Source of the DNA: Streptomyces sp. NBC_00271
Lineage (GTDB): Bacteria; Actinomycetota; Actinomycetes; Streptomycetales; Streptomycetaceae
Assembly: GCF_036178845.1 (NCBI RefSeq)
Contig: NZ_CP108070.1
Coordinates: forward strand, 186,001-250,000
Length of the DNA stretch: 64,000 nt
Direction: 5' to 3'
In this document: positions 51,368-61,414 of the stretch, in pieces
Layout: each line of letters opens with the position of its first letter
How positions within the stretch are numbered: position 1 is the stretch's first letter
Notes under the pieces: model-generated
Database searches by the model: none
Told to the model about the DNA's origin: nothing
Seen by the model: only the letters and a program-made list of their open reading frames with translations
Translations under genes and position numbers: made by a program

Positions 51368-52381
51368 CTATCCGGGGGTACGGCCGAAGACCGGCCGGGC
51401 CCACCCCGGCGGCTCCGGCACCGGCTCGGGTGCCCGCGGGGCTTCGGCGACCGCGGGGACCACCTGGGTCGGCGCGTGCACGTCCTTGCCGACCGCGGCA
51501 GCGGCGGCGGCGCCCGCGCCGCTCGCGGCGGCCCGCAGTGCCGCCACGAACTCCAGGCAGGAGTCGTAACGGTCCTCGGGGACCTTCGCCAGGGCCTTGG
51601 CCAGCACGCCGTCCAGCGCCGGCGGGATGCCCGGCCGTTGCTCGCTCAGGGGCGGCGGCTGGTCGTACTGGTGCGCCCACAGCAGCGCCATGTCGTCGTC
51701 CCGCTGGAAGGGCGGGGCGCCCGCGAGGGTTTCGTAGACGACGCAGGCGAAGCCGTACAGATCGCACCGGCCGTCCACCGGGCGGCCCGAGATCTGCTCC
51801 GGGGCCACGTAGTCGAGCGTGCCGACGAACTCGCCGACGGTCGTGAACCCGGTCAGCGACAGCGACTTCTTCGTCAGCCCGAAATCCGTGAGGTAGACGT
51901 ACTCGGGATGATCACTGTCCGTGCCCCGGGCCACCAGGATGTTGCCGGGCTTGACGTCCCGGTGCACCAGGTCGTGTTCATGGGCCGCGTCCAGCGCCGA
52001 CGCCACCTGCCCGGCGATCCGCAGCGCGGTCGTCACCGGCAGCGGGCCGTCCCGGTCGAGCAGGGCCCGCAGATCCAGCCCCGAGACGTACCGCATGGCG
52101 ATGTACAGGACACCGTCCGTCTCACCGGCCTCGAAGACCGGCACGATGTGCGGGTGGTCGATGGCGGCGGCCACCAGCGACTCGTGCGTGAAGCGGCGCC
52201 GGAAGGTGTCGTTGCGGGCCAGTTCCGGGGCGAGCAGTTTCAGCGCGACCGTACGGTCCAGACGCAGGTCCTTGGCGCAGTACACGACGGCCATGCCCCC
52301 GCGGCCGATCTCGCGCTCCACCCGGTAGCCCGCGATCTGGGCCCCGATCAGGCCCGAGGCCCGGCCGGAGTACAGCTCCAT
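51368..52381 (-). CDS. Hanks-type serine/threonine protein kinase
   Basis: About 337 residues from ATG 52381; ATG 52402 is also possible. Complete kinase domain: GRGGMAVVY (P-loop), AVALK-type Lys in TVALKLLAPE, HRDVKPGNIL (catalytic loop), DFGLTKK, GTLDYVAPEQ and GRCDLYGFACVVYE. A short Ala/Pro-rich tail and no membrane span, so cytosolic. It may phosphorylate the Ser/Thr-rich partner encoded next. Confidence 0.9.
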   Translation of the reverse strand: MELYSGRASGLIGAQIAGYRVEREIGRGGMAVVYCAKDLRLDRTVALKLLAPELARNDTFRRRFTHESLVAAAIDHPHIVPVFEAGETDGVLYIAMRYVSGLDLRALLDRDGPLPVTTALRIAGQVASALDAAHEHDLVHRDVKPGNILVARGTDSDHPEYVYLTDFGLTKKSLSLTGFTTVGEFVGTLDYVAPEQISGRPVDGRCDLYGFACVVYETLAGAPPFQRDDDMALLWAHQYDQPPPLSEQRPGIPPALDGVLAKALAKVPEDRYDSCLEFVAALRAAASGAGAAAAAAVGKDVHAPTQVVPAVAEAPRAPEPVPEPPGWARPVFGRTPG

Positions 52382-52423
52382 GCCCCCCGACGCCGCGCCC
52401 ATCACACACCGCCGCCGGCCCAC

Positions 52424-52609
52424 CGTGCGAGCGCCCCGGGACAGCCCCCCGCGCCGCCGGAACCGACTCCCGGAGCGGGTCCCGGCGCAGCCGTGTGAAC
52501 GGGCCGCTCACCCATGCCCGAATTCTATCCAGCGCTTTCTCCGGGCGCTTGATCACGGCCGGTCCGCAGACGGGCGTCCCGGACGCATCCTTCAGATTCG
52601 GGGGCGGGG
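52424..52609. other. intergenic, no gene
   Basis: Promoter space for the kinase; no supported frame. Confidence 0.4.
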
Positions 52610-53983
52610 TCAGGGCGTGGGGCACAGGGTCAGGTGGCGGCGGGCGGACGGCCGGGGCCGGGGCCCCGCGGGCGGGACCGGGGCCGGGGCAGAGGCGAGG
52701 GCGGGAGTGGGGGTCGGGGTGGGGGTGGGAGGGAGGGTGCGGGCGGGGCGGGGGCGTTGCGCACCGGCGGTCTCCTCGCGGACGACTTCCCGCAGGGCGC
52801 GGCCGAAGCGGGCGATGTCCTGGGGGGTGGTGTCGGGGCCGAGGGAGGCGCGCAGGGCCGTGGTGGCGCCGGAACGGGGCAGGTGGAGCGGGGTTTCCTG
52901 CGCGACCGTCTTCCACAGGACGACACCGCGGGCCGCCAGCCGGCGGCGGACGAGCGCGGCGGGCAGGTCGCGGTGGCGGAAGGCGAGGATGGCGGACTGG
53001 ACCCGGCCCGGGGCGATCAGTTCGGTGCCGGGGCACTCCTCGACGGCGGCGCGCAGGGCGGGCAGGAGCCCCTGCCCGGCCAGGCCGGCGGGTCCGTCGG
53101 TGGTGGCCGTGGCGGTGGTGGCGGTGGTGGCGGTGTGGTGGGCCAGGGCGGCGTTCAGGCCCGCGACGGCCGCGTTCGGCGGCAGGGGGCGGTGGGCGGC
53201 GGCGTCCTCGAACGCGGCACGCAGCCGGGGCGCCAGGAAGGCGAACCCGACGGCGTACGGGCCGCGCAGGAAGCGCCAGCCGTCCCCCGTCAGCAGCTGG
53301 CAGCCGATGCGGCCGGCATCCACGGGGAGCTGGCCGGCGGAGTAGGAGGCGTCGACGGCGTACACGCACCGGTACGGGGCGAGGATCTGCCCGATCTCCT
53401 CGACCGGGTTGACGATTCCGCAGCCGGAGGGGACGTGGACGACCGAGACGAGGGCGACGTCGTCGTCGATGTGCCGGGCCATCCACTCCAGGTCCAGGTC
53501 CCCGTCCTCGCGCAGCGGAACGACCTCCACCGTGCAGCGGGTGCGGTCGCGCAGGGCGTAGAGGGCGGTCAGGCGGGCGGCGCTCTCGTAGGGGGTCGTC
53601 CAGACGCGCTCGCCGCGGCCGGGGGTGAGGCGGGAGACCAGCGCGTCGAAGGCGCCGGCGGCGTCCGTGACGACGGCGGTGTCGGCGGCCGGGACGCCGA
53701 GCAGAGCGCCGAGGCGCTCGTGGACCTCGGTGCGCAGGACGTCCTCGAGGTCCTCCTCGAGCTCGTGCGGGCCGTAGCGGTCCTCGCGGCTCGCGCAGTC
53801 GGCGACGAGTGCGCGGACGGCGGCGGGCATGGTGCCCCAGCCCGCCGTGTCCAGGTGGACCGTCCGGCCCTCCCGGTCCGCGGGCTCCGTGCGGTCCGTG
53901 CCGTCCGTGCCGTCCGTGCCGTACGCGTGGTCCGTGCCGTACGTGTGGTCCCTGTGGTCCGTGGATGACGGCGTCGCGTTCAT
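52610..53983 (-). CDS. class V aminotransferase fold lacking the PLP lysine
   Basis: 457 residues from the ATG at 53983. The fold is class V aminotransferase / cysteine-desulfurase-like: [54 protein letters not shown] and [20 protein letters not shown]. At the site where PLP normally binds Lys (TGxGRKFLRGP in relatives) it reads [11 protein letters not shown], with Arg at the Lys position. The N-terminus has repeats of YGTDxxDGT, and the C-terminus is a Thr/Pro-rich tail. A triple half-site operator lies 32 bases before its start, shared with the IGWP and carrier-condensation genes. Confidence 0.75.
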
Positions 53984-54014
53984 TTCCGGGGCCTCCCCCC
54001 GCTGTCGCCAAATA

Positions 54015-54044
54015 TTGCCAACTTGCTTGGCAATACATTGCCAA
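54015..54044. promoter_or_regulatory. triple half-site operator, copy 1 (aminotransferase-like gene)
   Basis: TTGCCAA at 54015, TTGGCAA at 54027 and TTGCCAA at 54038: two perfect palindromes sharing the middle half-site, spacers 5 and 4. The near edge is 32 bases from the start codon at 53983. Confidence 0.8.
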
Positions 54045-54253
54045 GCGCGAGGCCGTGATGGCAACGGGGGCTCCGGCGGCGCTCTAGCGGAGGGGCCGCG
54101 AAAGTGCAGTTCAACCCCCTCGGGTTCGGCTCCGCGCGACCCGCGGAGCGGGGTGTTTGACAAACTTTGCCAGGCATCCGCGCAGGCGGTACGGCGACTC
54201 TCGCCGGCCTCCAGCCCATCTCCAGCGAATACCGAGCAGATCCCGAGGAGGCA

Positions 54254-54283
54254 TTGCCAAGCTTCTTGGCAAGAAGTTACCAA
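54254..54283. promoter_or_regulatory. triple half-site operator, copy 2 (IGWP peptide gene)
   Basis: TTGCCAA at 54254, TTGGCAA at 54266 and TTACCAA at 54277. Same spacers as copy 1 (5 and 4). It ends 34 bases before the ATG. Confidence 0.8.
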
Positions 54284-54317
54284 CGCAGATTCGCTTCATT
54301 GCCACGGAGGAGCTGTC

Positions 54318-54731
54318 ATGAAGAACCTCGTCGCCCGCCTCGCCGTCACCGCCGCCGTCGCCTCCGCCGTACTCACCGCCGGCGGCATCAGCACCGCCGC
54401 GGACGGCATCGGCTGGCCCAAGGCGGCGAGCACCACGACCGCCTCCTCCTCCATCGGCTGGCCGAGGACGGCCGGCACCGTCTCCGCCGCCTCCGCGGAG
54501 GGCGACATCGGCTGGCCCAAGACCACCGCCACCACCGCCGCGGCCACGGACGACATCGGCTGGCCGAAGGGCACCGTCACCACCGTCTCCGCCACCGACG
54601 ACATCGGCTGGCCCAAGGTCACCGTCGTCTCGGCGAACGGCGACATCGGCTGGCCCAAGACCACCGCCACCACCGCCTCCGCCACCGACGACATCGGCTG
54701 GCCGGTCGCGGGCGGCAGCGCGGCCGTCTGA
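54318..54731 (+). CDS. secreted repeat peptide with seven IGWP motifs
   Basis: 137 residues from the ATG at 54318 with GGAGGAG upstream. A Sec signal peptide (MKNLVARLAVTAAVASAVL, cleaved near ISTAA) leads into seven copies of IGWP, usually (D/G)DIGWPK, about 14 to 17 residues apart, separated by Thr/Ala/Ser-rich linkers (TTATTAAATD, TTATTASATD). Repeats 3 and 6 are almost identical. The last copy is IGWPVAGG. It could be a multi-core precursor peptide or a structural surface protein. No known family is recalled. Shares its operator with the aminotransferase-like and carrier-condensation genes. Confidence 0.85.
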   Translation: MKNLVARLAVTAAVASAVLTAGGISTAADGIGWPKAASTTTASSSIGWPRTAGTVSAASAEGDIGWPKTTATTAAATDDIGWPKGTVTTVSATDDIGWPKVTVVSANGDIGWPKTTATTASATDDIGWPVAGGSAAV

Positions 54732-54996
54732 GGGTGCCGCCCGCCCTCGCACGGCCGCCCCGTCCCCGCGCGTGCGCGGAACGCTTCCCCGCCGCCGCCC
54801 CCGTACGACGTCCACCGGACCACCCGCCGAACCCGTGAGGCCCCCGCCGGCAGCAGCACCGTGGCGGGGGCTTCGGTCATGTCACGGGGCGGGCCCGCGG
54901 CCTGAGCGGGCGTCCACGGCGACTCGAGCGGGACGCGGCACGGTGCTGCCCGGAGCACCGCTTCGCCTCTCCCGTGTCCCGGAAGGAAGTCGCCCA
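54732..54996. other. intergenic, no gene
   Basis: No credible frame. An inverted repeat built on CCCCGCC/GGCGGGG arms around 54840-54895 may end the peptide transcript. Confidence 0.4.
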
Positions 54997-55320
54997 ATGG
55001 CCCACGCACCGTGGAACGCGAAGTTCGAGGACGTCCTGCGCCAGGGCCTGCCGGGGCTCGGCAAGGACAAGGAGCCCGCCGCCGACGTCCCGATGGAGGC
55101 CTACGGGCTGGACTCCATGGCGCTCATCGGCATCGTCAGCGCGCTGGAGTCCGCGTTCCGCGTCAGCCTCGCCGGCCAGATCGTCGTCCCGGTGCACGCC
55201 CTGAGCGCCGGCCAGCTCTGGGGCATCCTCTCCGCCGCGCTGGCCCCGGCATGGGACGAGAGCCGGCCCGCCGCGGCCGCACGCCGCACGCGCGACCTGG
55301 GCCCCTGGGCCGTGGCCTGA
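54997..55320 (+). CDS. acyl carrier protein
   Basis: 107 residues from the ATG at 54997 with GGAAGGAAG upstream. Carrier fold with the phosphopantetheine site YGLDSMALIGIVSALES (Ser conserved), then VPVHALSAGQLWGIL. The C-terminal ~25 residues are an Ala/Arg-rich tail. No ketosynthase or adenylation gene lies nearby; it may serve the adjacent nitroreductase or the carrier-condensation protein. Confidence 0.85.
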   Translation: MAHAPWNAKFEDVLRQGLPGLGKDKEPAADVPMEAYGLDSMALIGIVSALESAFRVSLAGQIVVPVHALSAGQLWGILSAALAPAWDESRPAAAARRTRDLGPWAVA

Positions 55321-55412
55321 GCGCCGACGGCATGCCGGCCCCTTGATGCATATGGACCACTTATGTGCGCGTGGCGGGAAACGGCGCCTTGACCGGCCGA
55401 GGACGGGCGGTG

Positions 55413-56081
55413 TCAGTAGTCACCGACGAACGTGACCGTCTCGTCGAGCGGCGCCCGGCCCGTACGGGTGTATCCCACCGTGACGTCCTCGAACCCGATC
55501 GACATGCCGCAGAAGAGGACGAGCTCGTCCGGGGGTGACAGGACCTCCGCGACGGTCTTGCGGTACTTCGCCCATGCCATCTGCGCGCAGCTGTGCAGCC
55601 CTTCGGCGCGCAGCAGCAGCATGACGGTCTGCAGATACATGCCGACGTCGGACCATTGGGCCGGGCCCAGGTCGCGGTCGATGTAGCAGAACAGGGCGGC
55701 GGGGGCGCCGAAACAGTCCCAGTTCGCGGAAGCGGCCCTCTGGCGCGCCTCCATGTCCTCGCGCGCAATGCCGAGTGCGCCGTAGCGCTGCTCGCCGAAG
55801 GCGGATCGGCGTTCGCGGTACGGGGACTTCAGTGCGGGCGGGTACTGCTCGTACTCCGGCTCGTCCCAGGGGTCGCCCACGGCCAGGCGCTCGCCGGCGC
55901 GCTTCTTGAGTTCGGCCAGCGGTCCGCCGGTCAGCACGTAGGTGTGCCACGGCTGGAGGTTCGATCCGGACGGTGTCCAGGCCGCGCCGGACAGCACCCG
56001 CTCCAGCACCTCCCTCGGGACGGGCCGGTCGGTGAATCCGCGTACCGCCCGCCGGCTCGTGACCGCCTCGTAGACGTTCAC
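55413..56081 (-). CDS. nitroreductase-family flavoprotein
   Basis: 222 residues. N-terminal SRRAVRGFTDRPVPREVLE, then APAALFCYIDRDLG, SDVGMYLQTVMLLLRAEGLH and PPDELVLFCGMSIGFED, typical of FMN-dependent NAD(P)H nitroreductases of the NfnB/BluB-like group. The last ~15 residues match the usual C-terminus. Divergent from an azoreductase remnant and a MarR gene; an AT-rich segment before it (56120-56165) is a likely regulated promoter. Confidence 0.85.
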   Translation of the reverse strand: MNVYEAVTSRRAVRGFTDRPVPREVLERVLSGAAWTPSGSNLQPWHTYVLTGGPLAELKKRAGERLAVGDPWDEPEYEQYPPALKSPYRERRSAFGEQRYGALGIAREDMEARQRAASANWDCFGAPAALFCYIDRDLGPAQWSDVGMYLQTVMLLLRAEGLHSCAQMAWAKYRKTVAEVLSPPDELVLFCGMSIGFEDVTVGYTRTGRAPLDETVTFVGDY

Positions 56082-56226
56082 GGTCGCCCACCTCCCTCCG
56101 CGCGACGAGGCACTTTCGTTTCATTCAATATAGTACCATCCGATACCATCTCGTGTTTAACGATTGTCCCGTACAAACCCTCTGCCCCTGGTCCCCCGCT
56201 CCGGACACCGCTCCTGGAGAGAGCCC

Positions 56227-56304
56227 ATGGCCACGCTGCTGCACATCGACTCGTCCGTGTTCCCCGGCGAGGCGTCCTCGCCCCAAGGCCGGACAACTCG
56301 CTGA
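56227..56304 (+). pseudogene. FMN-dependent NADH-azoreductase, N-terminal stub
   Basis: The ATG at 56227 reads MATLLHIDSSVFPGEASS, the N-terminus of AzoR-like azoreductases, then stops within eight codons. The remaining ~200 residues are absent up to the MarR gene. MarR regulators commonly stand next to azoreductases, so the lost gene may have been its target. Confidence 0.6.
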
Positions 56305-56487
56305 GCGCCTCGCCGCATAACCCCCGGGCCATGGACGCCGCCTGACGCCTCACCCCGGTACGTCACGCGGCGTTCCCGTCGCCTGCGCCCTGCCCGGCGG
56401 TGACGACGGCTGCCGCCCTCAAGGCCGGGTTCGCCGCGACAGCCGCATGAGACGACACGCGCCCACGCGGCCGGTGCGCGGGCGCGC

Positions 56488-56973
56488 TTACGCCTCGCCG
56501 CCTGCGGGATGGGCAAACCGGGTCAGCAGATCCGTCAGCTGCTCGGGCTCGCCGGGCCCCAGTTCGGCGACCAGATGTTCGGCCAGCGGCGCCGCCGCCA
56601 CATGAGCTGCGTCGAAGAGCTCCACGCCCTCGGGCGTGATCTCCACCGCCCGCACCCGCCGGTCCCCCGGAACGTTCTTGCGCACGGCCAGTCCCCTGCG
56701 CTCCAGGTCGTCCACGACCCGCATGATTCCCGCCTTGTCCGACCCCGTCGCCGCCGCCAGGTCCCGCTGCACCGTGGGTCCGCGGTCGACCAGCACGATC
56801 AGCACGGCGAAATGCCGCAGCTCGATGCCGAGCGGCCGAAGCGCCTCCTCCATCACCGCGGCCGCGCGCCAGTGCGCCCGGCGCAGCAGCAGGCCGAGAG
56901 CGAAGGGCGAGGCGTCCCCGGGACGGTCGGTCACACGTGAGGGGGTGGTCCGGTGGGGAACGTCGGCGTTCAT
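56488..56973 (-). CDS. MarR-family transcriptional regulator
   Basis: 161 residues from the ATG at 56973. Winged helix with DLAAATGSDKAGIMRVVDDLERRGL, wing NVPGDRRVRAVEITPEG and C-terminal dimerisation helix. A sequence with GATACxxTCTC occurs before it (57004) and before the nitroreductase (56137), so it may regulate both. It is not an obvious match to the TTGCCAA operators. Confidence 0.85.
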   Translation of the reverse strand: MNADVPHRTTPSRVTDRPGDASPFALGLLLRRAHWRAAAVMEEALRPLGIELRHFAVLIVLVDRGPTVQRDLAAATGSDKAGIMRVVDDLERRGLAVRKNVPGDRRVRAVEITPEGVELFDAAHVAAAPLAEHLVAELGPGEPEQLTDLLTRFAHPAGGEA

Positions 56974-57193
56974 GGGGCCACATTAACGCCATCGATTCGT
57001 TCGATACGGTCTCATTTGAAACTAAATGCGGCTCCGTCCGCTGCGGCCCTGTCGCCTCACGCCAATACGGCTCCACCGGGCCCGGTATCGACCCATCGCC
57101 CATGGGGAACAACGGCCTCGTCGCGTCGTCGGGGCGCCGGGGCAGGAGCTCGAGTGGTGCTCCAGTGGTTCGAGACGGCCCCTCAGGATCCCG

Positions 57194-57222
57194 TTGCCAG
57201 GATCTTGGCAAGGTTTTGCCAA
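57194..57222. promoter_or_regulatory. triple half-site operator, copy 3 (carrier-condensation gene)
   Basis: TTGCCA at 57194, TTGGCAA at 57205 and TTGCCAA at 57216. Same middle-to-last spacing as copies 1 and 2; the first half-site is one base shorter. It ends 39 bases before the ATG. Confidence 0.75.
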
Positions 57223-57261
57223 GCCTTCCTTCTGTAGCCGCTGTCGAAGGAGCAAGCCGCG

Positions 57262-58764
57262 ATGTCACTCTCCGGTCAGAAGCCGCCCGGCCGCCTGGTC
57301 CCCTCCGCACCGACGGCGCTGCCGCGGGGCGCGGGCGGCAGCGGCGACGGCGGCGCCGAGCGCGCCGTGCCGCCCGCGTCCGGCGCCGAACCGCCCGGCA
57401 CTCCCCTGCAGGAGATCGTCCGCGACCTGTTCGCCGAGGCGATCGGCGTGCCGCGGCGCACCGTCCACGCCGACTCCGACTTCTTCCGCCTCGGCGGGCA
57501 CCCCGCGGCCGCGGCCCGGCTGCTGGCCCGGGCCCGCCGGGTGCTGGGCGCCGGCCTGGACGACCGCACCCTGCACGAGGCGCCCACCCCGGCCCGGTTC
57601 GCCGCGGCGGCCGGCGAACGGCCGGCCGCCGCCACCGGGCCCGCCGGGGCGCCCGCCGGGGCATTCGACGGGGAGGGCAGCGCGGTCCTGCCGCTGCGGC
57701 TGCGCGGGGCACTGAACGCAGGGGCGCTGCAGGAGGCGCTGGGAGATGTGGGGCACCGTCACGGGGCGCTGCGCAACAGCCGGCTGGGCTCGGCCGGCAC
57801 CCGGCTGCGCGCCCTGGCCGCCGGGGACCACCTGCTGGAGCTCACCCTCCCGGCCGACCTGGTCGACCTGTGGTCGCACACCCCGCTGGCCGCCGAACTC
57901 GCCCTGGCCTACCGGGCACGGGCCGCGGGCCGGGCGCCGCGCTGGGAGGGCCCGGTGCCCGAGGCGGCGCCCCGGGCGCGGGCCGGCGACCTGGCGCCCA
58001 CCGTGCCGCCGGGCAGCCGGCCCGCCCCGGCCGACGCCCGCGTCGGCCGCCTCGCCCTCGACTGGGATGCCGGCCTGCACCAGCGGCTGGCCCGGCTGGC
58101 CGCCGCGCAGGGCGCCACCCTGTTCATGGTGGTGCACGCCGCGCTCGCGGCCCTGCTCACCCGGCTCGGCGCGGGCCCCGCCATCACCGTGGCCGCGCCG
58201 GTGCCGGCCCGTGACAGTGCCGCCCTGCGCCGGGCCGTGGGCCCCTACGGGCGGGTACTGGCCCTGTCCGTGGACACCTCCGGCGACCCGGCCTTCACCG
58301 CGCTGCTGCGCCGGGTACGCGCCGCGGACCTCGCCGCCTACCGCGCCGGCACCGCGGCGCTGGCCCGGCCCGGCGGCATCGCGCTGAGCGTCCTGGCGGA
58401 CAGCGGCGAGGCGTACGAGGCGGCCGGGCTCACCGTGCGGGCGGCCCCGCCCCTGCTCCCGCTGCGGGCCGCGGCCCTCGGCCTGATCCTGACCGAACGG
58501 CACACGCCGGCCGGCGCGCCCGCGGGCATCGCCGTCACCGCCGCCTACCAGTACGACGCCGTCGGCGAGACGGCCGCCGCCCACCTGACCGGGCAGCTGG
58601 CCGCCCTGCTCGAGGCCGCCCTCGACGCCCCCGCCGCCGCGCTGAGCCGGCTGAACGGCGGGGCCAGGCCGCCGCTCGCCCCGGCCGGGACCGGGGAACA
58701 CGCCGCCCGCTCCCCCGCCCGCCGGCCCGCACCCGCGGCGGTGCCGGTGCCGGTGGCCGGGTGA
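57262..58764 (+). CDS. NRPS-type carrier-condensation didomain with both active sites lost
   Basis: 500 residues from the ATG at 57262. After a Gly/Pro-rich start, a carrier-like domain at ~50-110 reads DSDFFRLGGHPAAAARLLAR; the phosphopantetheine Ser of GGHS is Pro. A condensation-like domain follows (LPLRLRGALNAGALQEALGD, VGHRHGALRN, then DLVDLWSHTPLAAELALAY and VVHAALAALLTRLGAGPAIT). Where active domains have HHxxxDGWS, it has PADLVDLWS, so the catalytic His is missing. No adenylation domain is present. It is therefore probably not a normal NRPS enzyme but a scaffold or binding protein, or a decayed gene. Shares the triple half-site operator. Confidence 0.75.
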   Translation: MSLSGQKPPGRLVPSAPTALPRGAGGSGDGGAERAVPPASGAEPPGTPLQEIVRDLFAEAIGVPRRTVHADSDFFRLGGHPAAAARLLARARRVLGAGLDDRTLHEAPTPARFAAAAGERPAAATGPAGAPAGAFDGEGSAVLPLRLRGALNAGALQEALGDVGHRHGALRNSRLGSAGTRLRALAAGDHLLELTLPADLVDLWSHTPLAAELALAYRARAAGRAPRWEGPVPEAAPRARAGDLAPTVPPGSRPAPADARVGRLALDWDAGLHQRLARLAAAQGATLFMVVHAALAALLTRLGAGPAITVAAPVPARDSAALRRAVGPYGRVLALSVDTSGDPAFTALLRRVRAADLAAYRAGTAALARPGGIALSVLADSGEAYEAAGLTVRAAPPLLPLRAAALGLILTERHTPAGAPAGIAVTAAYQYDAVGETAAAHLTGQLAALLEAALDAPAAALSRLNGGARPPLAPAGTGEHAARSPARRPAPAAVPVPVAG

Positions 58765-58863
58765 GCCCGGGTGGCTCTCCGGCCCCGGTCCTCCGGGGGG
58801 GCGGGCTCGAGAAGCCTTGCCGGGCATCCCCTGCGCCGGGGCAGCGCCGGCGTCACCGGGCTC
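58765..58863. other. short intergenic region between convergent genes
   Basis: GC-rich with CCCCGG/CCGGGG-type inverted repeats (58776-58804), a probable terminator. A lone TTGCCGGGCATCC near 58817 resembles TTGCCAGGCATCC at 54165. Confidence 0.4.
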
Positions 58864-59745
58864 CTAGTCGGGTGCGGTGGCTGCGGTGCGGTAGAACTCG
58901 GCCGCGGTGATGGTGGCGGGGACGCCGAGTTCGGTGGCGACCGCGGTGATCGCGCCGGCCCCGACGGCGAGGTCGGCCTCGCCGCCGGCGGTGAAATACG
59001 GCGCGACGAACGTCTCGTAGTGGGCCCGGACCTCGTCCGCGGTGTGCCGGCCGAGGAATGTCTGCATGTGCCGCACCGTGGTGTCGGGTTCGCCGTGGAT
59101 CACCCGCAGGGCGCGCCGGTGGGCTCGTACGACGGCCCGGACCGCGGGGTCGTCCGGGTGGATGTAGGTGGGGTCGACGGCCACGCCCACGGTGGGGATC
59201 TGGAAGTGGTCGCCGACCCAGGCCAGTACCTGCCAGCCGTGCTCGGCGGCTATCGCCTCCGGTGCCATGGTGCTGCCCACCAGAGCGGCGTCGATGCTGC
59301 CGTCGTGCAGCCGGCGCAGGTCCATGCCGTAGTCGCCGGGCGGGCGGACGACGGTGTGGATGTCGCGGTCCGGGTCGAGGCCGGCCCGGCGCAGCACGAT
59401 CCGGGTGAAGCACCCGGGTGCGGTGCGGGGGGCGTGTACCGCCAGCCGCCGGCCGGCCAGGTCGGCCAGCGAGGCCGGGCCGGGGCGGGCTAGGAACCAG
59501 AACAGCGGGCGGGTGGTGTTGACGTGGAGTGCGACCCAGGGGATGCCGTCGGTCAGCCGGGACAGCAGTGCCCGGCCGAGCCCGATGGTGGCGCCGTGGC
59601 GCAGCCGCTCCTCGTCCCAGGAGCAGCCGTCGCGCAGTGCGACGTGGACGCCCTCGTCGGCGTAGTAGCCCTGCTGGTCGGCGATGTGGGCGACCAGTTC
59701 CTCGTGCAGGCCCCGCCCGACGTAGGCGAGATCGACCGTGTACAT
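58864..59745 (-). CDS. Thi5/NMT1-like periplasmic-binding-fold protein without a signal peptide
   Basis: 293 residues from the ATG at 59745. Type 2 periplasmic-binding fold: VDLAYVGRGLHEELVAHIAD, YYADEGVHVALRDG, RPLFWFLARPGPASLADLAG and GYGMDLRRL-like GDYGMDLRRLHDGSIDAALV. Related proteins are solute receptors for ABC importers or Thi5-type pyrimidine synthases. There is no signal peptide or lipobox and no transporter gene near, so it probably acts in the cytosol. Downstream of the SDR in the TetR operon (37 bp gap). Confidence 0.7.
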   Translation of the reverse strand: MYTVDLAYVGRGLHEELVAHIADQQGYYADEGVHVALRDGCSWDEERLRHGATIGLGRALLSRLTDGIPWVALHVNTTRPLFWFLARPGPASLADLAGRRLAVHAPRTAPGCFTRIVLRRAGLDPDRDIHTVVRPPGDYGMDLRRLHDGSIDAALVGSTMAPEAIAAEHGWQVLAWVGDHFQIPTVGVAVDPTYIHPDDPAVRAVVRAHRRALRVIHGEPDTTVRHMQTFLGRHTADEVRAHYETFVAPYFTAGGEADLAVGAGAITAVATELGVPATITAAEFYRTAATAPD

Positions 59746-59782
59746 GAACGTGTCCCTTGGTCGTGTCACAGGACAGGGGGCG

Positions 59783-60547
59783 TCAGTACATGGACATGCC
59801 GCCGTTGACCGCGGCCGTGGTGCCGGTCATGAAGGCGTTGTCCTCGCCGGCGTAGAAGGCGACCGCCTGGGCGACGTCGTCCGGGTGTGCCAGGCGGCCC
59901 AGGGGGGTGGCGGCGACCTGCCGCTGCTTGTGCTCGTTGTCGAACACGTCCGTCATGTGGGCCATGCGGGTGTCCTCCACCGGGCCGGGCGCGACGATGT
60001 TGACCGTGATGCCCTGCGGGCCCAGTTCCTGGGCGAGGTAGCGGGCGAACTGCTCCAGTGCGGCCTTGGAGGTGCCCAGCGCGATCATGTGCTCCCGGGG
60101 CCGGCGGCTGAGGCCGGTGCCGATGTAGATGATGCGTCCCCAGCCCTGTTCGGTCATGGCGGGCAGGACGGCTTTGGTGACCGCGAACGCCGCATGCATC
60201 TCGGCGTCGAGCTTGCCGCCCAGTTCTTCCCACGTCATGTCCTGGAACGACTTGACCGCATACGGGATGAGCGCGTTGTGCACGAGCACGTGGACGCCGC
60301 CCCATGCCGCCTGGACCTGCCCGACCATGTTCTCGACGGCCGCCTCCTCGCGCACGTCGGCCTGTACGGCCATGGCCTGGCCGCCCGCGGCCTCGATGCC
60401 GGCCACGATCTCCCCGGCCGCCGTGCCGCTGCGGAGGTAGTTGACCACCACGCGCATCCCCCGGGCGGCCAGAAGGCGTGCGGTGGCCGCGCCGATTCCG
60501 CTGCTGGCCCCTGTCACCAAGGCCACCCTGCCGTTTGTCCCGGTCAC
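59783..60547 (-). CDS. FabG-like SDR lacking the catalytic tyrosine
   Basis: 254 residues. Rossmann motif TGASSGIG, NALIPYAVKSF in place of NNAG, and the C-terminal MTGTTAAVNGGMSMY. At the usual YxxxK site it reads HMIALGTSKAAL, so Lys is kept but Tyr is replaced by Leu. This suggests a binding role or an altered reaction. Its ATG overlaps the TetR stop by 4 bp (ATGA). Confidence 0.8.
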   Translation of the reverse strand: MTGTNGRVALVTGASSGIGAATARLLAARGMRVVVNYLRSGTAAGEIVAGIEAAGGQAMAVQADVREEAAVENMVGQVQAAWGGVHVLVHNALIPYAVKSFQDMTWEELGGKLDAEMHAAFAVTKAVLPAMTEQGWGRIIYIGTGLSRRPREHMIALGTSKAALEQFARYLAQELGPQGITVNIVAPGPVEDTRMAHMTDVFDNEHKQRQVAATPLGRLAHPDDVAQAVAFYAGEDNAFMTGTTAAVNGGMSMY

Positions 60548-61230
60548 GGGCCCACCTCCTGCTCCTCGTCGCGGGCTCTCGGCATGACCGCGCGCAGTTG
60601 TTCCTCGCCGATGCCGGAGTGTCCGGGGTGTGCCGGGCGGATCGCCCCGTAGAGCACGGTGTCGACGCCCGCCCGCAGCAGATCGGCCGCGGTCCGGTCG
60701 AGTTCGCGCGGCAGCTGCGAGGTGAGCAGCCGCTCCAGCGCGCCGCGGGTGATCTCACTCAGCAGCTCCGGCGGTGCCGACAGCAGTCCCTGCCGGTGCC
60801 CGTCCCGCAGCAGTTCGTCCAGCCGCCGGTAGACCACCGCGTCCACGCGCTGCTCCACGTACTGGCGCAGCACCGCATCGCCTCGTCCCGTCGCAAGCTG
60901 GACCGCGCCGATCCGCCCGAGCTCGCTGCCCGCCGCGATCAGGAACCGCTGGACCCGCACGCCGAACGGCTGCCCTTGCGCGTCCTGGGCCGCCGCCAGC
61001 GTGCGTTCCACCGCCGTGAACTGCCGGTCCAGCACCGCGGCCAGCAGGCTGCGCTTGTCCGGGAAATGGCGGTAGATCGTCTTCTTGCTCATCCCGAGCT
61101 CACGGGCGAGATCGTCCATGCTCGCCCGCGCGGAGCCCGGCGCGAGGAACAGCCGGCCGGCCGCCTCCACGATCACGTCGGCACGCTGCCCGCCCGTCCC
61201 GGAAACTCGGGAAACTGATTCGGTTTCCAT
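60544..61230 (-). CDS. TetR-family regulator
   Basis: 228 residues from the ATG at 61230. N-terminal TetR HTH (VIVEAAGRLFLAPGSARASM, DLARELGMSKKTIYRHFPDK), then a helical ligand domain. First gene of a coupled operon with the SDR and the Thi5-like gene. GGAAAC repeats cover its start codon, a likely autoregulatory site. Confidence 0.85.
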   Translation of the reverse strand: METESVSRVSGTGGQRADVIVEAAGRLFLAPGSARASMDDLARELGMSKKTIYRHFPDKRSLLAAVLDRQFTAVERTLAAAQDAQGQPFGVRVQRFLIAAGSELGRIGAVQLATGRGDAVLRQYVEQRVDAVVYRRLDELLRDGHRQGLLSAPPELLSEITRGALERLLTSQLPRELDRTAADLLRAGVDTVLYGAIRPAHPGHSGIGEEQLRAVMPRARDEEQEVGP

Positions 61231-61238
61231 AGTTTCCA
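61201..61238. promoter_or_regulatory. predicted TetR autoregulatory operator
   Basis: Four copies of the motif GGAAAC / GTTTCC: two direct (61201, 61210) and two inverted (61222, 61232). The cluster spans the tetR start codon and its first codons. Confidence 0.55.
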
Positions 61239-61414
61239 GGGTGACTCCCCGCCTTTGCGCGCGCCTCTCGGGCACGCAGGGAGCCGGCTCGCAGGGCGGC
61301 GCGCACCCCGGCGGCCGCTCGTCCCGGCCCAGACGGCGGCCGGCCTCACCGGCCGCCGTTCCGGCACGTCCCCAGGCGGAGTGTTCGACGACCGTCTGCG
61401 TCTCGTGCCGCCCG
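61239..61414. other. intergenic, no gene
   Basis: GC-rich with GGCCGGCC-type inverted repeats near 61330-61350. No supported frame. Confidence 0.4.

Follow-up and report, generated by a model that had tools for sequence, protein, structure and literature searches.

A candidate peptide-sensing switch in Streptomyces: tandem-repeat IGWP-type peptides, an XRE-TPR regulator and a shared operator beside a pseudoenzyme gene set

The signals for which Streptomyces is best known are small molecules, gamma-butyrolactones among them. In Bacillota, RRNPP(A) systems (Rap, Rgg/ComR, NprR, PlcR, PrgX, AimR) pair a receptor of about 400 amino acids, composed of an XRE-type helix-turn-helix (HTH) and tetratricopeptide repeats (TPR), with a small neighbouring gene for an exported propeptide, and the receptor binds the processed, re-imported peptide. 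Tandemly duplicated propeptides have been described for such systems (PMC11343458), and a survey reports RRNPP systems also on plasmids, inferred to regulate biosynthetic clusters, while describing the signals of Actinomycetota as typically small molecules made by enzymes (PMC10075063). The RRNPP literature that we found concerns Firmicutes/Bacillota. Here we describe a gene set within a 64,000-nucleotide stretch (the window, G000:C1:186001-250000) of a Streptomyces genome of 12.28 Mb, whose main contig has 11.93 Mb. The members of this set are probably targets of a switch that works like the RRNPP ones, with an HTH-TPR protein, here called XT, as the receptor and short repeat peptides of the type [IVL][GDE]WP (xWP) as the signal.

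XT is like the RRNPP(A) receptors in size and in its XRE-type HTH (HTH_31) and TPR domains, and at some loci an xWP gene with a putative export signal lies beside it, as propeptide genes lie beside those receptors; by this likeness XT, too, may bind processed and re-imported peptides. It differs from the known systems in its occurrence in Streptomyces and Kitasatospora instead of Bacillota, in the [IVL][GDE]WP motif with up to 13 copies, in additional leaderless DDDIGWP open reading frames (ORFs) beside the receptor, and in its putative targets, which are pseudoenzymes and parts of a non-ribosomal peptide synthetase (NRPS). Since the system is found in Streptomycetaceae and the RRNPP family is one of Bacillota, we compare the two in their way of working and do not class XT as a member. 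Our literature search, which had most subscription papers and preprints outside its coverage, recognised no paper that deals with IGWP repeats or describes a Streptomyces system of the RRNPP type.

In relatives, xWP peptides, XT and the operator are genetically paired, and two enzyme folds encoded by the set have lost active-site residues. Peptide sensing is the simplest model to explain xWP peptides in two contexts together with a dedicated HTH-TPR protein and a shared operator. According to this model, the IGWP repeat protein of the window would be exported through its N-terminal signal sequence, and extracellular cleavage of its repeats would release many copies of one short peptide centred on (D)DIGWP(VAP). 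This would re-enter cells and be bound by the TPR domain of XT, which in turn would bind DNA at TTGSCAA operators and, as an activator or a repressor, control its own signal gene (a feedback), the gene of an aminotransferase-fold protein (AT*), a unit of the IGWP gene and a carrier protein gene, and an NRPS or its remnant. AT* and the condensation-type domain C* may then serve as non-catalytic partner proteins of the target pathway.

A wider claim, for which we see the chances as evenly balanced, is that Streptomyces has a previously undescribed peptide-pheromone system, with exported tandem-repeat [IVL][GDE]WP precursors, dedicated XRE-TPR receptors and the TTGSCAA operator; that it is a portable switch with diversifying pherotypes, carried by chromosomes as well as linear plasmids (SGLP1 among them) beside different biosynthetic clusters; that the leaderless DDDIGWP ORFs supply an intracellular ligand or antagonist; and that one branch controls the pseudoenzyme module. 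If true, antibiotic-type clusters on linear plasmids would have beside them a peptide signal that is encoded by a gene and served by a receptor family of its own, and a synthetic hexa- to octapeptide would offer a simple handle to ask whether such peptides switch silent clusters. The finding also gives context for two enzyme-fold protein families without active-site residues.

The set in the window, in which all the components named in a first-pass annotation of this DNA were found again (the AT* fold, the IGWP protein, the carrier-condensation didomain T-C*, the carrier protein and the shared operator), consists of the following features:

52610..53983, minus strand: AT*, class V aminotransferase/SufS-fold protein without the pyridoxal phosphate (PLP) lysine (Arg237); 457 amino acids, Pfam Aminotran_5, E 9.5e-23
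54015..54044: triple heptamer operator upstream of AT*, TTGCCAA-N5-TTGGCAA-N4-TTGCCAA, steps of 12 and 11 bp
54254..54283: triple operator upstream of the IGWP gene, TTGCCAA-N5-TTGGCAA-N4-TTACCAA, steps of 12 and 11 bp
54318..54731, plus strand: IGWP repeat protein, predicted to be secreted, 7 repeats, 137 amino acids; proposed precursor of a tandem signal peptide
54997..55320, plus strand: acyl/peptidyl carrier protein (ACP) with intact GLDSM, Pfam PP-binding
57194..57222: triple operator upstream of the T-C* gene, TTGCCAG-N4-TTGGCAA-N4-TTGCCAA, steps of 11 and 11 bp
57262..58764, plus strand: T-C* didomain, Pfam PP-binding and Condensation, 500 amino acids; carrier Ser replaced by Pro, both His of HHxxxDG gone

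The link between XT and the xWP peptides was seen in the surroundings of the XT genes. Among 50 distinct XT loci, partly related and often with short flanks, 33 have a divergent upstream ORF with [ILV][GDEN]WP, a motif picked after the first loci had been seen; the same-strand upstream and same-strand downstream controls gave one locus each (1/50 and 1/50; p 9e-13). The opposite-strand downstream arm gave 5/50 and is not a clean control, because all five matches are secreted IGWP genes of AT* loci. One genome, represented by both L026 and L080 (G091), was entered only once in these counts. At four loci from genomes (L077-L080, in G210, G386, G001 and G091) and on a plasmid of strain NBC_01006 (L067), XT is the divergent neighbour of an IGWP or IDWP repeat gene, the XT of G001 being cut by the contig end. 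In the stretches examined at L077-L080, tblastn gave no match to AT*, T-C* or ACP, and on the NBC_01006 plasmid AT* lies about 11 kb from the pair of xWP gene and XT. Across 392 Streptomyces genomes XT was found in 63; all 10 genomes with a validated repeat gene have it (10/10 against 63/392, p 6e-9). These 10 remain from 15 after five (G053, G066, G164, G284 and G296, loci L021, L029, L025, L023 and L027) were dropped for having neither a repeat ORF nor TTGSCAA at their loci; G324 was kept although its 3-kb locus (L020) failed this test, since a larger region (L082) shows 12 repeats. Among plasmids, 36 records encode XT, and every one of the 23 with AT* belongs to them; XT was also seen in the flanks of 13 of the 21 genome contigs with AT*, the others being cut short or having XT elsewhere or not at all.

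The xWP ORFs beside XT are of two kinds. Some are repeated (IGWP, IDWP, VEWP) behind an N-terminus that by eye is signal-like, for example at L067, L077-L080, L105 and L119. Many others are short and leaderless, with DDDIGWP or DDDIDWP, and most of these start 216-311 bp from XT; L036, L057 and L070 carry real DDDIGWP or EDDIGWP ORFs of this sort. With start codons chosen by us and a loose test, a Shine-Dalgarno-like sequence precedes 27 of 28 ORFs of both kinds (26 of 27 distinct ones), compared with 132 of 476 ATGs (28%) in these regions. The ORF beside XT in the window genome encodes 56 amino acids (G000:C1:294683-294853) with the stretch SDEDIGWPKRCAPPGP and the motif DEDIGWP. In RRNPP propeptides the processed pheromone is usually at the C-terminus, and several xWP ORFs end exactly in the motif (...NDDIDWP, ...DDEVEWP, ...QQASIEWP). 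One may speculate that the short leaderless DDDIGWP ORFs provide intracellular ligands or antagonists.

The first-pass annotation had also proposed that three genes of the window share one elaborate operator, and this is borne out: a triple of TTGSCAA-like heptamers ends 31-39 bp before the start codons of AT*, IGWP and T-C*, the heptamers at 54277 and 57194 being imperfect. Counting both strands of the window, TTGCCAA occurs 8 times where 2.1 are expected, a number reached in none of 100 shuffles. In the whole genome of 12.3 Mb, the exact form TTGSCAA-N5-TTGSCAA is confined to the operators of AT* and IGWP plus the mirror copy of each, with none for the reversed control, and a search for the triple hexamer with at most one mismatch returned only the 57194 operator and its mirror copy. 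The 392 Streptomyces genomes hold six exact operator triples (reversed control 0), all at xWP peptide loci: four at AT*/IGWP loci, two of them being the 54015 operator and its mirror copy, and two (G210, G386) in front of an IGWP gene whose product starts with a signal-like stretch. The arrangement upstream of the IGWP gene recurs in several relatives, and in L034, L035, L038 and L039 heptamers closely precede NRPS genes. Of the 63 genomes with XT, 10 have the double operator TTGCCAA-N4/5-TTGGCAA, compared with 5 of the 329 without XT (p 9e-6), the reversed control occurring in 7 genomes, none with XT. The sequence TTGCCAA-N-TTGGCAA is a dyad, a symmetry that is frequent in the binding sites of XRE dimers.

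The IGWP protein itself has no match in Pfam or NCBIfam. One hydrophobic N-terminal stretch, judged like the other signal sequences by eye and hydropathy, is followed by IGWP at residues 31, 46, 64, 80, 96, 110 and 126, in agreement with the earlier description of a seven-repeat peptide whose secretion is predicted. Across loci the repeat genes have 2 to 13 copies of IGWP, IDWP, VDWP, TNWP, EDWP, IDHP or DPGLP behind similarly signal-like N-termini; repeats that vary in number and type behind so similar a start are what would be expected for diversifying signals. The ratio of non-synonymous to synonymous substitution rates (dN/dS) of the IGWP gene is 1.12 against the Streptomyces olivochromogenes locus (L042) and 1.19 against a Streptomyces diastatochromogenes locus (L043); in these and all dN/dS comparisons below there are few substitutions per gene, and the L043 copy is partial.

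The neighbourhood of AT* is likewise conserved. We compared 37 AT* loci (the window, 13 plasmid loci, 21 genome contigs and 2 genome regions, with L063 excluded for its broken AT match); counts of neighbouring genes cover the flanks examined, which are often short. AT*, the divergent repeat protein and the operator, and in 18 of the 37 the T-C* NRPS, recur on linear plasmids and genome contigs of Streptomyces and Kitasatospora. A divergent tandem-repeat gene with a signal-like N-terminus is present at 35/37 loci, and at 32/37 a divergent ORF contains two or more xWP motifs. Three of the five exceptions keep the same kind of N-terminus with other repeats, DIDHPVAP (L051), AEDWPVAP (L052) and GDPGLPVAP (L060); of the remaining two, L049 is without such an ORF and in L067 AT* belongs to another operon. 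At least two TTGSCAA heptamers within 700 bp were found at 35/37 loci, where the mean density is 0.196 per 700 bp, and a heptamer pair at 11 or 12 bp at 21/37. The neighbourhood on which the first-pass annotation had made its proposal depend is thus present in relatives. IGWP-type genes were found on 16 Streptomyces plasmids, all among the 23 plasmids of Streptomyces and Kitasatospora with AT* (H1-H23, H23 partial; class V matches at 33-34%, such as H29, H30 and H32, were left out). Other surroundings of the AT* loci vary widely and include polyketide synthase and mycofactocin, menaquinone and ATP-grasp cluster genes. In a comparison of 29 loci with families named by Pfam, Streptomyces antibiotic regulatory proteins (SARPs) were found around AT* in 14, a stand-alone condensation-domain protein in 9 and a phosphopantetheinyl transferase in 6. 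Regulators of the AAA-LuxR type (LAL), considered as a common partner, were found at 4 of the 29 by clustering and at L063 by tblastn, too few for that role.

Several findings weigh against XT as the peptide receptor acting at these operators. SARP genes are common near AT*, as just described, and the operator resembles a SARP site. Seventeen of the 50 XT loci are without a divergent xWP ORF, 3 of them having a flank of less than 310 bp, and L068, counted among the 33 positives, appears to be spurious. In the window genome the one close XT (60% identity, G000:C1:293221-294426, with a mirror copy) lies outside the window, about 52 kb from the IGWP gene; the 56-amino-acid ORF beside it has no signal sequence, and the operator-like site 66 bp upstream of it is weak, with 3 mismatches. 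Since the reversed control of the triple hexamer search matches as often when up to 3 mismatches are allowed (14 and 9 against 10 and 10), that site alone means little. Loci with altered repeats (TNWP, DPGLP) keep DDDIGWP or DDDLDWP in the short ORF beside XT, so that receptor and secreted repeat do not simply co-vary. A scan for covariation between peptide and receptor, with 17 G-type and 13 acidic-type XT sequences, gave no clean column, the best at class level being R275 (17/17 G-type, 4/13 acidic), and direct recognition of the peptide by XT is therefore not supported by it. In a profile search of the PDB, the best natural match of XT was the peptide-pheromone receptor ComR, which speaks for the model, and PlcR was matched as well; but the HTH alone accounts for both matches, and other XRE proteins (a phage immunity repressor, C.AhdI, C.BclI) rank between ComR and PlcR. 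For the TPR part of XT the matches are designed TPR proteins. Finally, the XT homologues examined from outside Streptomycetaceae (G588, G405, G406) have no convincing xWP precursor.

The two pseudoenzymes were examined residue by residue. In a PDB profile alignment, Arg237 of AT* occupies the column of the PLP lysine of SufS-type cysteine desulfurases, in the GHK stretch of SufS/CsdB, so that the catalytic lysine of class V aminotransferases and cysteine desulfurases is absent, as had been claimed from the sequence at first reading. Arg stands there in 121/121 aligned family members (the window and 120 listed out of 217 matches), and we therefore regard AT* as a conserved family of probable pseudoenzymes and not as a local mutation. 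The AlphaFold model (mean confidence, pLDDT, 81.6) matches SufS in Foldseek with E 2e-25. AT* thus shares fold and overall alignment with SufS/CsdB and differs in the Lys-to-Arg exchange and at the EHH of SufS, the His of which stacks on PLP and where AT* sequences read ESA, ESV, EGV or similar. The tail consists of a variable Pro/Ala-rich linker and a C-terminal RRHLTL; similar motifs end 90 of 121 AT* sequences compared with 1.7% of shuffled tails, which suggests a docking tail. An encapsulin cargo role of AT* was considered and rejected, the cysteine desulfurase cargo model being a weak match (31 bits against a cut-off of 800) and the tail being unlike the familiar cargo peptides. The dN/dS of AT* is 0.16 against L042 and 0.45 against L043 (268 codons), that of ACP 0.26 and 0.70; with so few substitutions, purifying constraint on both is suggested and not proven. 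On the plasmid of NBC_01006 (L067:16007-17137), AT* stands beside proline dehydrogenase, AMP-binding and P450 genes with no IGWP gene adjoining, surroundings that may help to reveal its role.

In T-C*, GGHP replaces the carrier motif GGHS and PADLVDLWS replaces HHxxxDG, so the earlier reading of a didomain without carrier Ser or catalytic His also stands. Neither His is present in any of 33 readable C* sequences (34 aligned), which sets the family apart from catalytic condensation domains. Of the 29 homologues whose carrier could be aligned, 10 retain its Ser (GGxS). The window protein corresponds to the T-C* part of a longer protein found in relatives, A-(MT)-T-C*-A*-MbtH (MT, methyltransferase). 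Matches of its model (pLDDT 74) include PCP-C didomains and, from the teicoplanin NRPS, the X-domain, which is a non-catalytic recruiting domain; with these T-C* has in common the fold and a condensation domain without catalytic His, and it differs in that no P450 partner is known for it and in that the carrier Ser, too, is gone in the window. The dN/dS of T-C* is 0.46 against L042. ACP lies 3' of the IGWP gene on the same strand and is perhaps co-transcribed with it; in the flanks examined it is present at 11 of the 37 AT* loci.

Four other explanations have to be weighed against peptide sensing. The operators could be sites of a SARP or SARP-LAL protein, through which a SARP of the surrounding secondary-metabolite cluster would switch on AT*, the NRPS and the unit of IGWP and ACP, with XT as another cluster regulator and the IGWP protein as a secreted accessory protein for binding or protection. 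The promoter bound by the SARP-LAL regulator PimR contains three heptamers about one helical turn apart, with the related heptamer TGGCAAG (PMC5930380), a layout shared by the window operators; that at 57194 has the 11-bp steps typical of SARPs and contains TGGCAAG, and the frequency of SARP genes in AT* flanks fits as well. Yet a 12-bp step occurs in two of the three operators of the window, the dyad of TTGCCAA-N-TTGGCAA is of a kind frequent at XRE dimer sites, and the double operator is enriched in genomes with XT. Moreover, one SARP query found none in the flanks of L077-L080 (SARPs elsewhere in these genomes were not sought), of which L077, L078 and L079 nonetheless carry TTGSCAA pairs or triples at 11-bp steps. 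We therefore rejected a SARP or LAL as the sole regulator and keep this explanation as an unlikely rival; a SARP and XT acting jointly, with a role for the SARP at the operator, is possible. The explanation offered in the first-pass annotation was a functional assembly for peptide export or modification or a surface structure, with AT* and C* as non-catalytic scaffolds and the IGWP protein as the structural or modified product. The conservation of both pseudoenzymes in all readable sequences, the low dN/dS of AT* against L042, its frequent C-terminal motif and the likeness of C* to the teicoplanin X-domain speak for it. On the other hand, no export or modification gene was seen as a constant neighbour of the repeat gene across the loci compared, T-C* and ACP do not look obligatory, and at L077-L080 xWP repeat genes accompany XT where AT*, T-C* and ACP are missing from the stretch examined. 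The recurring partner is the XRE-TPR regulator. Of the original proposal, one conserved set with a shared operator thus survives, and an assembly for export, modification or surface structure has become an improbable account of it.

Ordinary decay, in which T-C* would be a dying NRPS fragment with its old promoter in a set without present function, seems to us about as improbable. The longer protein of relatives and the frequent loss of the carrier Ser agree with it, and against L042 constraint on T-C* appears weaker than on AT* or ACP, although against L043 the latter two are also higher; yet T-C proteins of close similarity (P0006-P0008, representing 43, 71 and 30 sequences) still have an open frame, and the operator is intact. 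Least probable, in our view, is a multi-core precursor of a ribosomally synthesised and post-translationally modified peptide (RiPP), or a secreted antimicrobial, with modifying enzymes supplied by the neighbouring cluster, for example the ATP-grasp ligases of loci without AT*. Tandem cores are known in RiPPs, and in L077 the peptide is flanked by genes for ATP-grasp ligases and by a hydroxylase-like one, with similar genes in L078 and L079. The flanking enzymes vary between loci, however, whereas the regulator recurs; several of the peptides are short ORFs ending in WP, and RiPPs that undergo cytoplasmic modification do not usually start with a signal-like stretch.

Beyond the set, some loci of relatives deserve mention. 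On plasmid SGLP1 of Streptomyces globisporus C-1027, XT and a VEWP repeat peptide are about 1 kb apart; besides these two, the stretch L120:6816-9236 encodes a protein with two carrier domains, and genes with annotations as a streptomycin-operon-type and an AraC regulator follow at a distance of a few kb. A 2009 paper describes an XRE-family gene, sgcR, with a possible regulatory role in the C-1027 cluster (PMC2657911), and sgcR is possibly the same gene as the XT of SGLP1. Genes for a gamma-butyrolactone synthase and/or a ScbR-type receptor (L065:905-5467, L066:1843-4002) lie on the same plasmids as AT*/IGWP, within about 16 kb. A conserved short protein of 46 amino acids, MGIRDTKNAI...DSPKTIMNQISNA, is encoded at L034:2042-2182 and L037:13713-13853, with a possible relative at L082:12934-13131; its neighbours in L034 and L037 are a GNAT, an MFS transporter and two proteins with a cupin domain, and the group looks like a small peptide-modification cassette near AT*.

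Every part of the gene set is duplicated in a mirror copy of the window region near 11.69 Mb, which places that region within a terminal inverted repeat. An RNA switch was considered and rejected for 52000-59500, where an Rfam scan gave no family reaching its gathering score. The first-pass annotation had placed an intact ACP and a nitroreductase between the members of the set; ACP is indeed intact, and the nitroreductase and its MarR neighbour, which among the 29 loci cluster only with those of the two closest relatives, are for that reason probably outside the system. The dN/dS of the MarR gene is 0.02 against L042 and 0.08 against L043. The S. olivochromogenes counterparts (L042) of the NMT1-like and TetR genes at 58864-61275 align with an internal stop or frame break. 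Adjoining the nitroreductase and MarR genes, the AT-rich, repeat-like promoter regions at 56125-56155 and 56985-57035 (GTACCATCCGATACCATC and a similar stretch) are possibly MarR sites.

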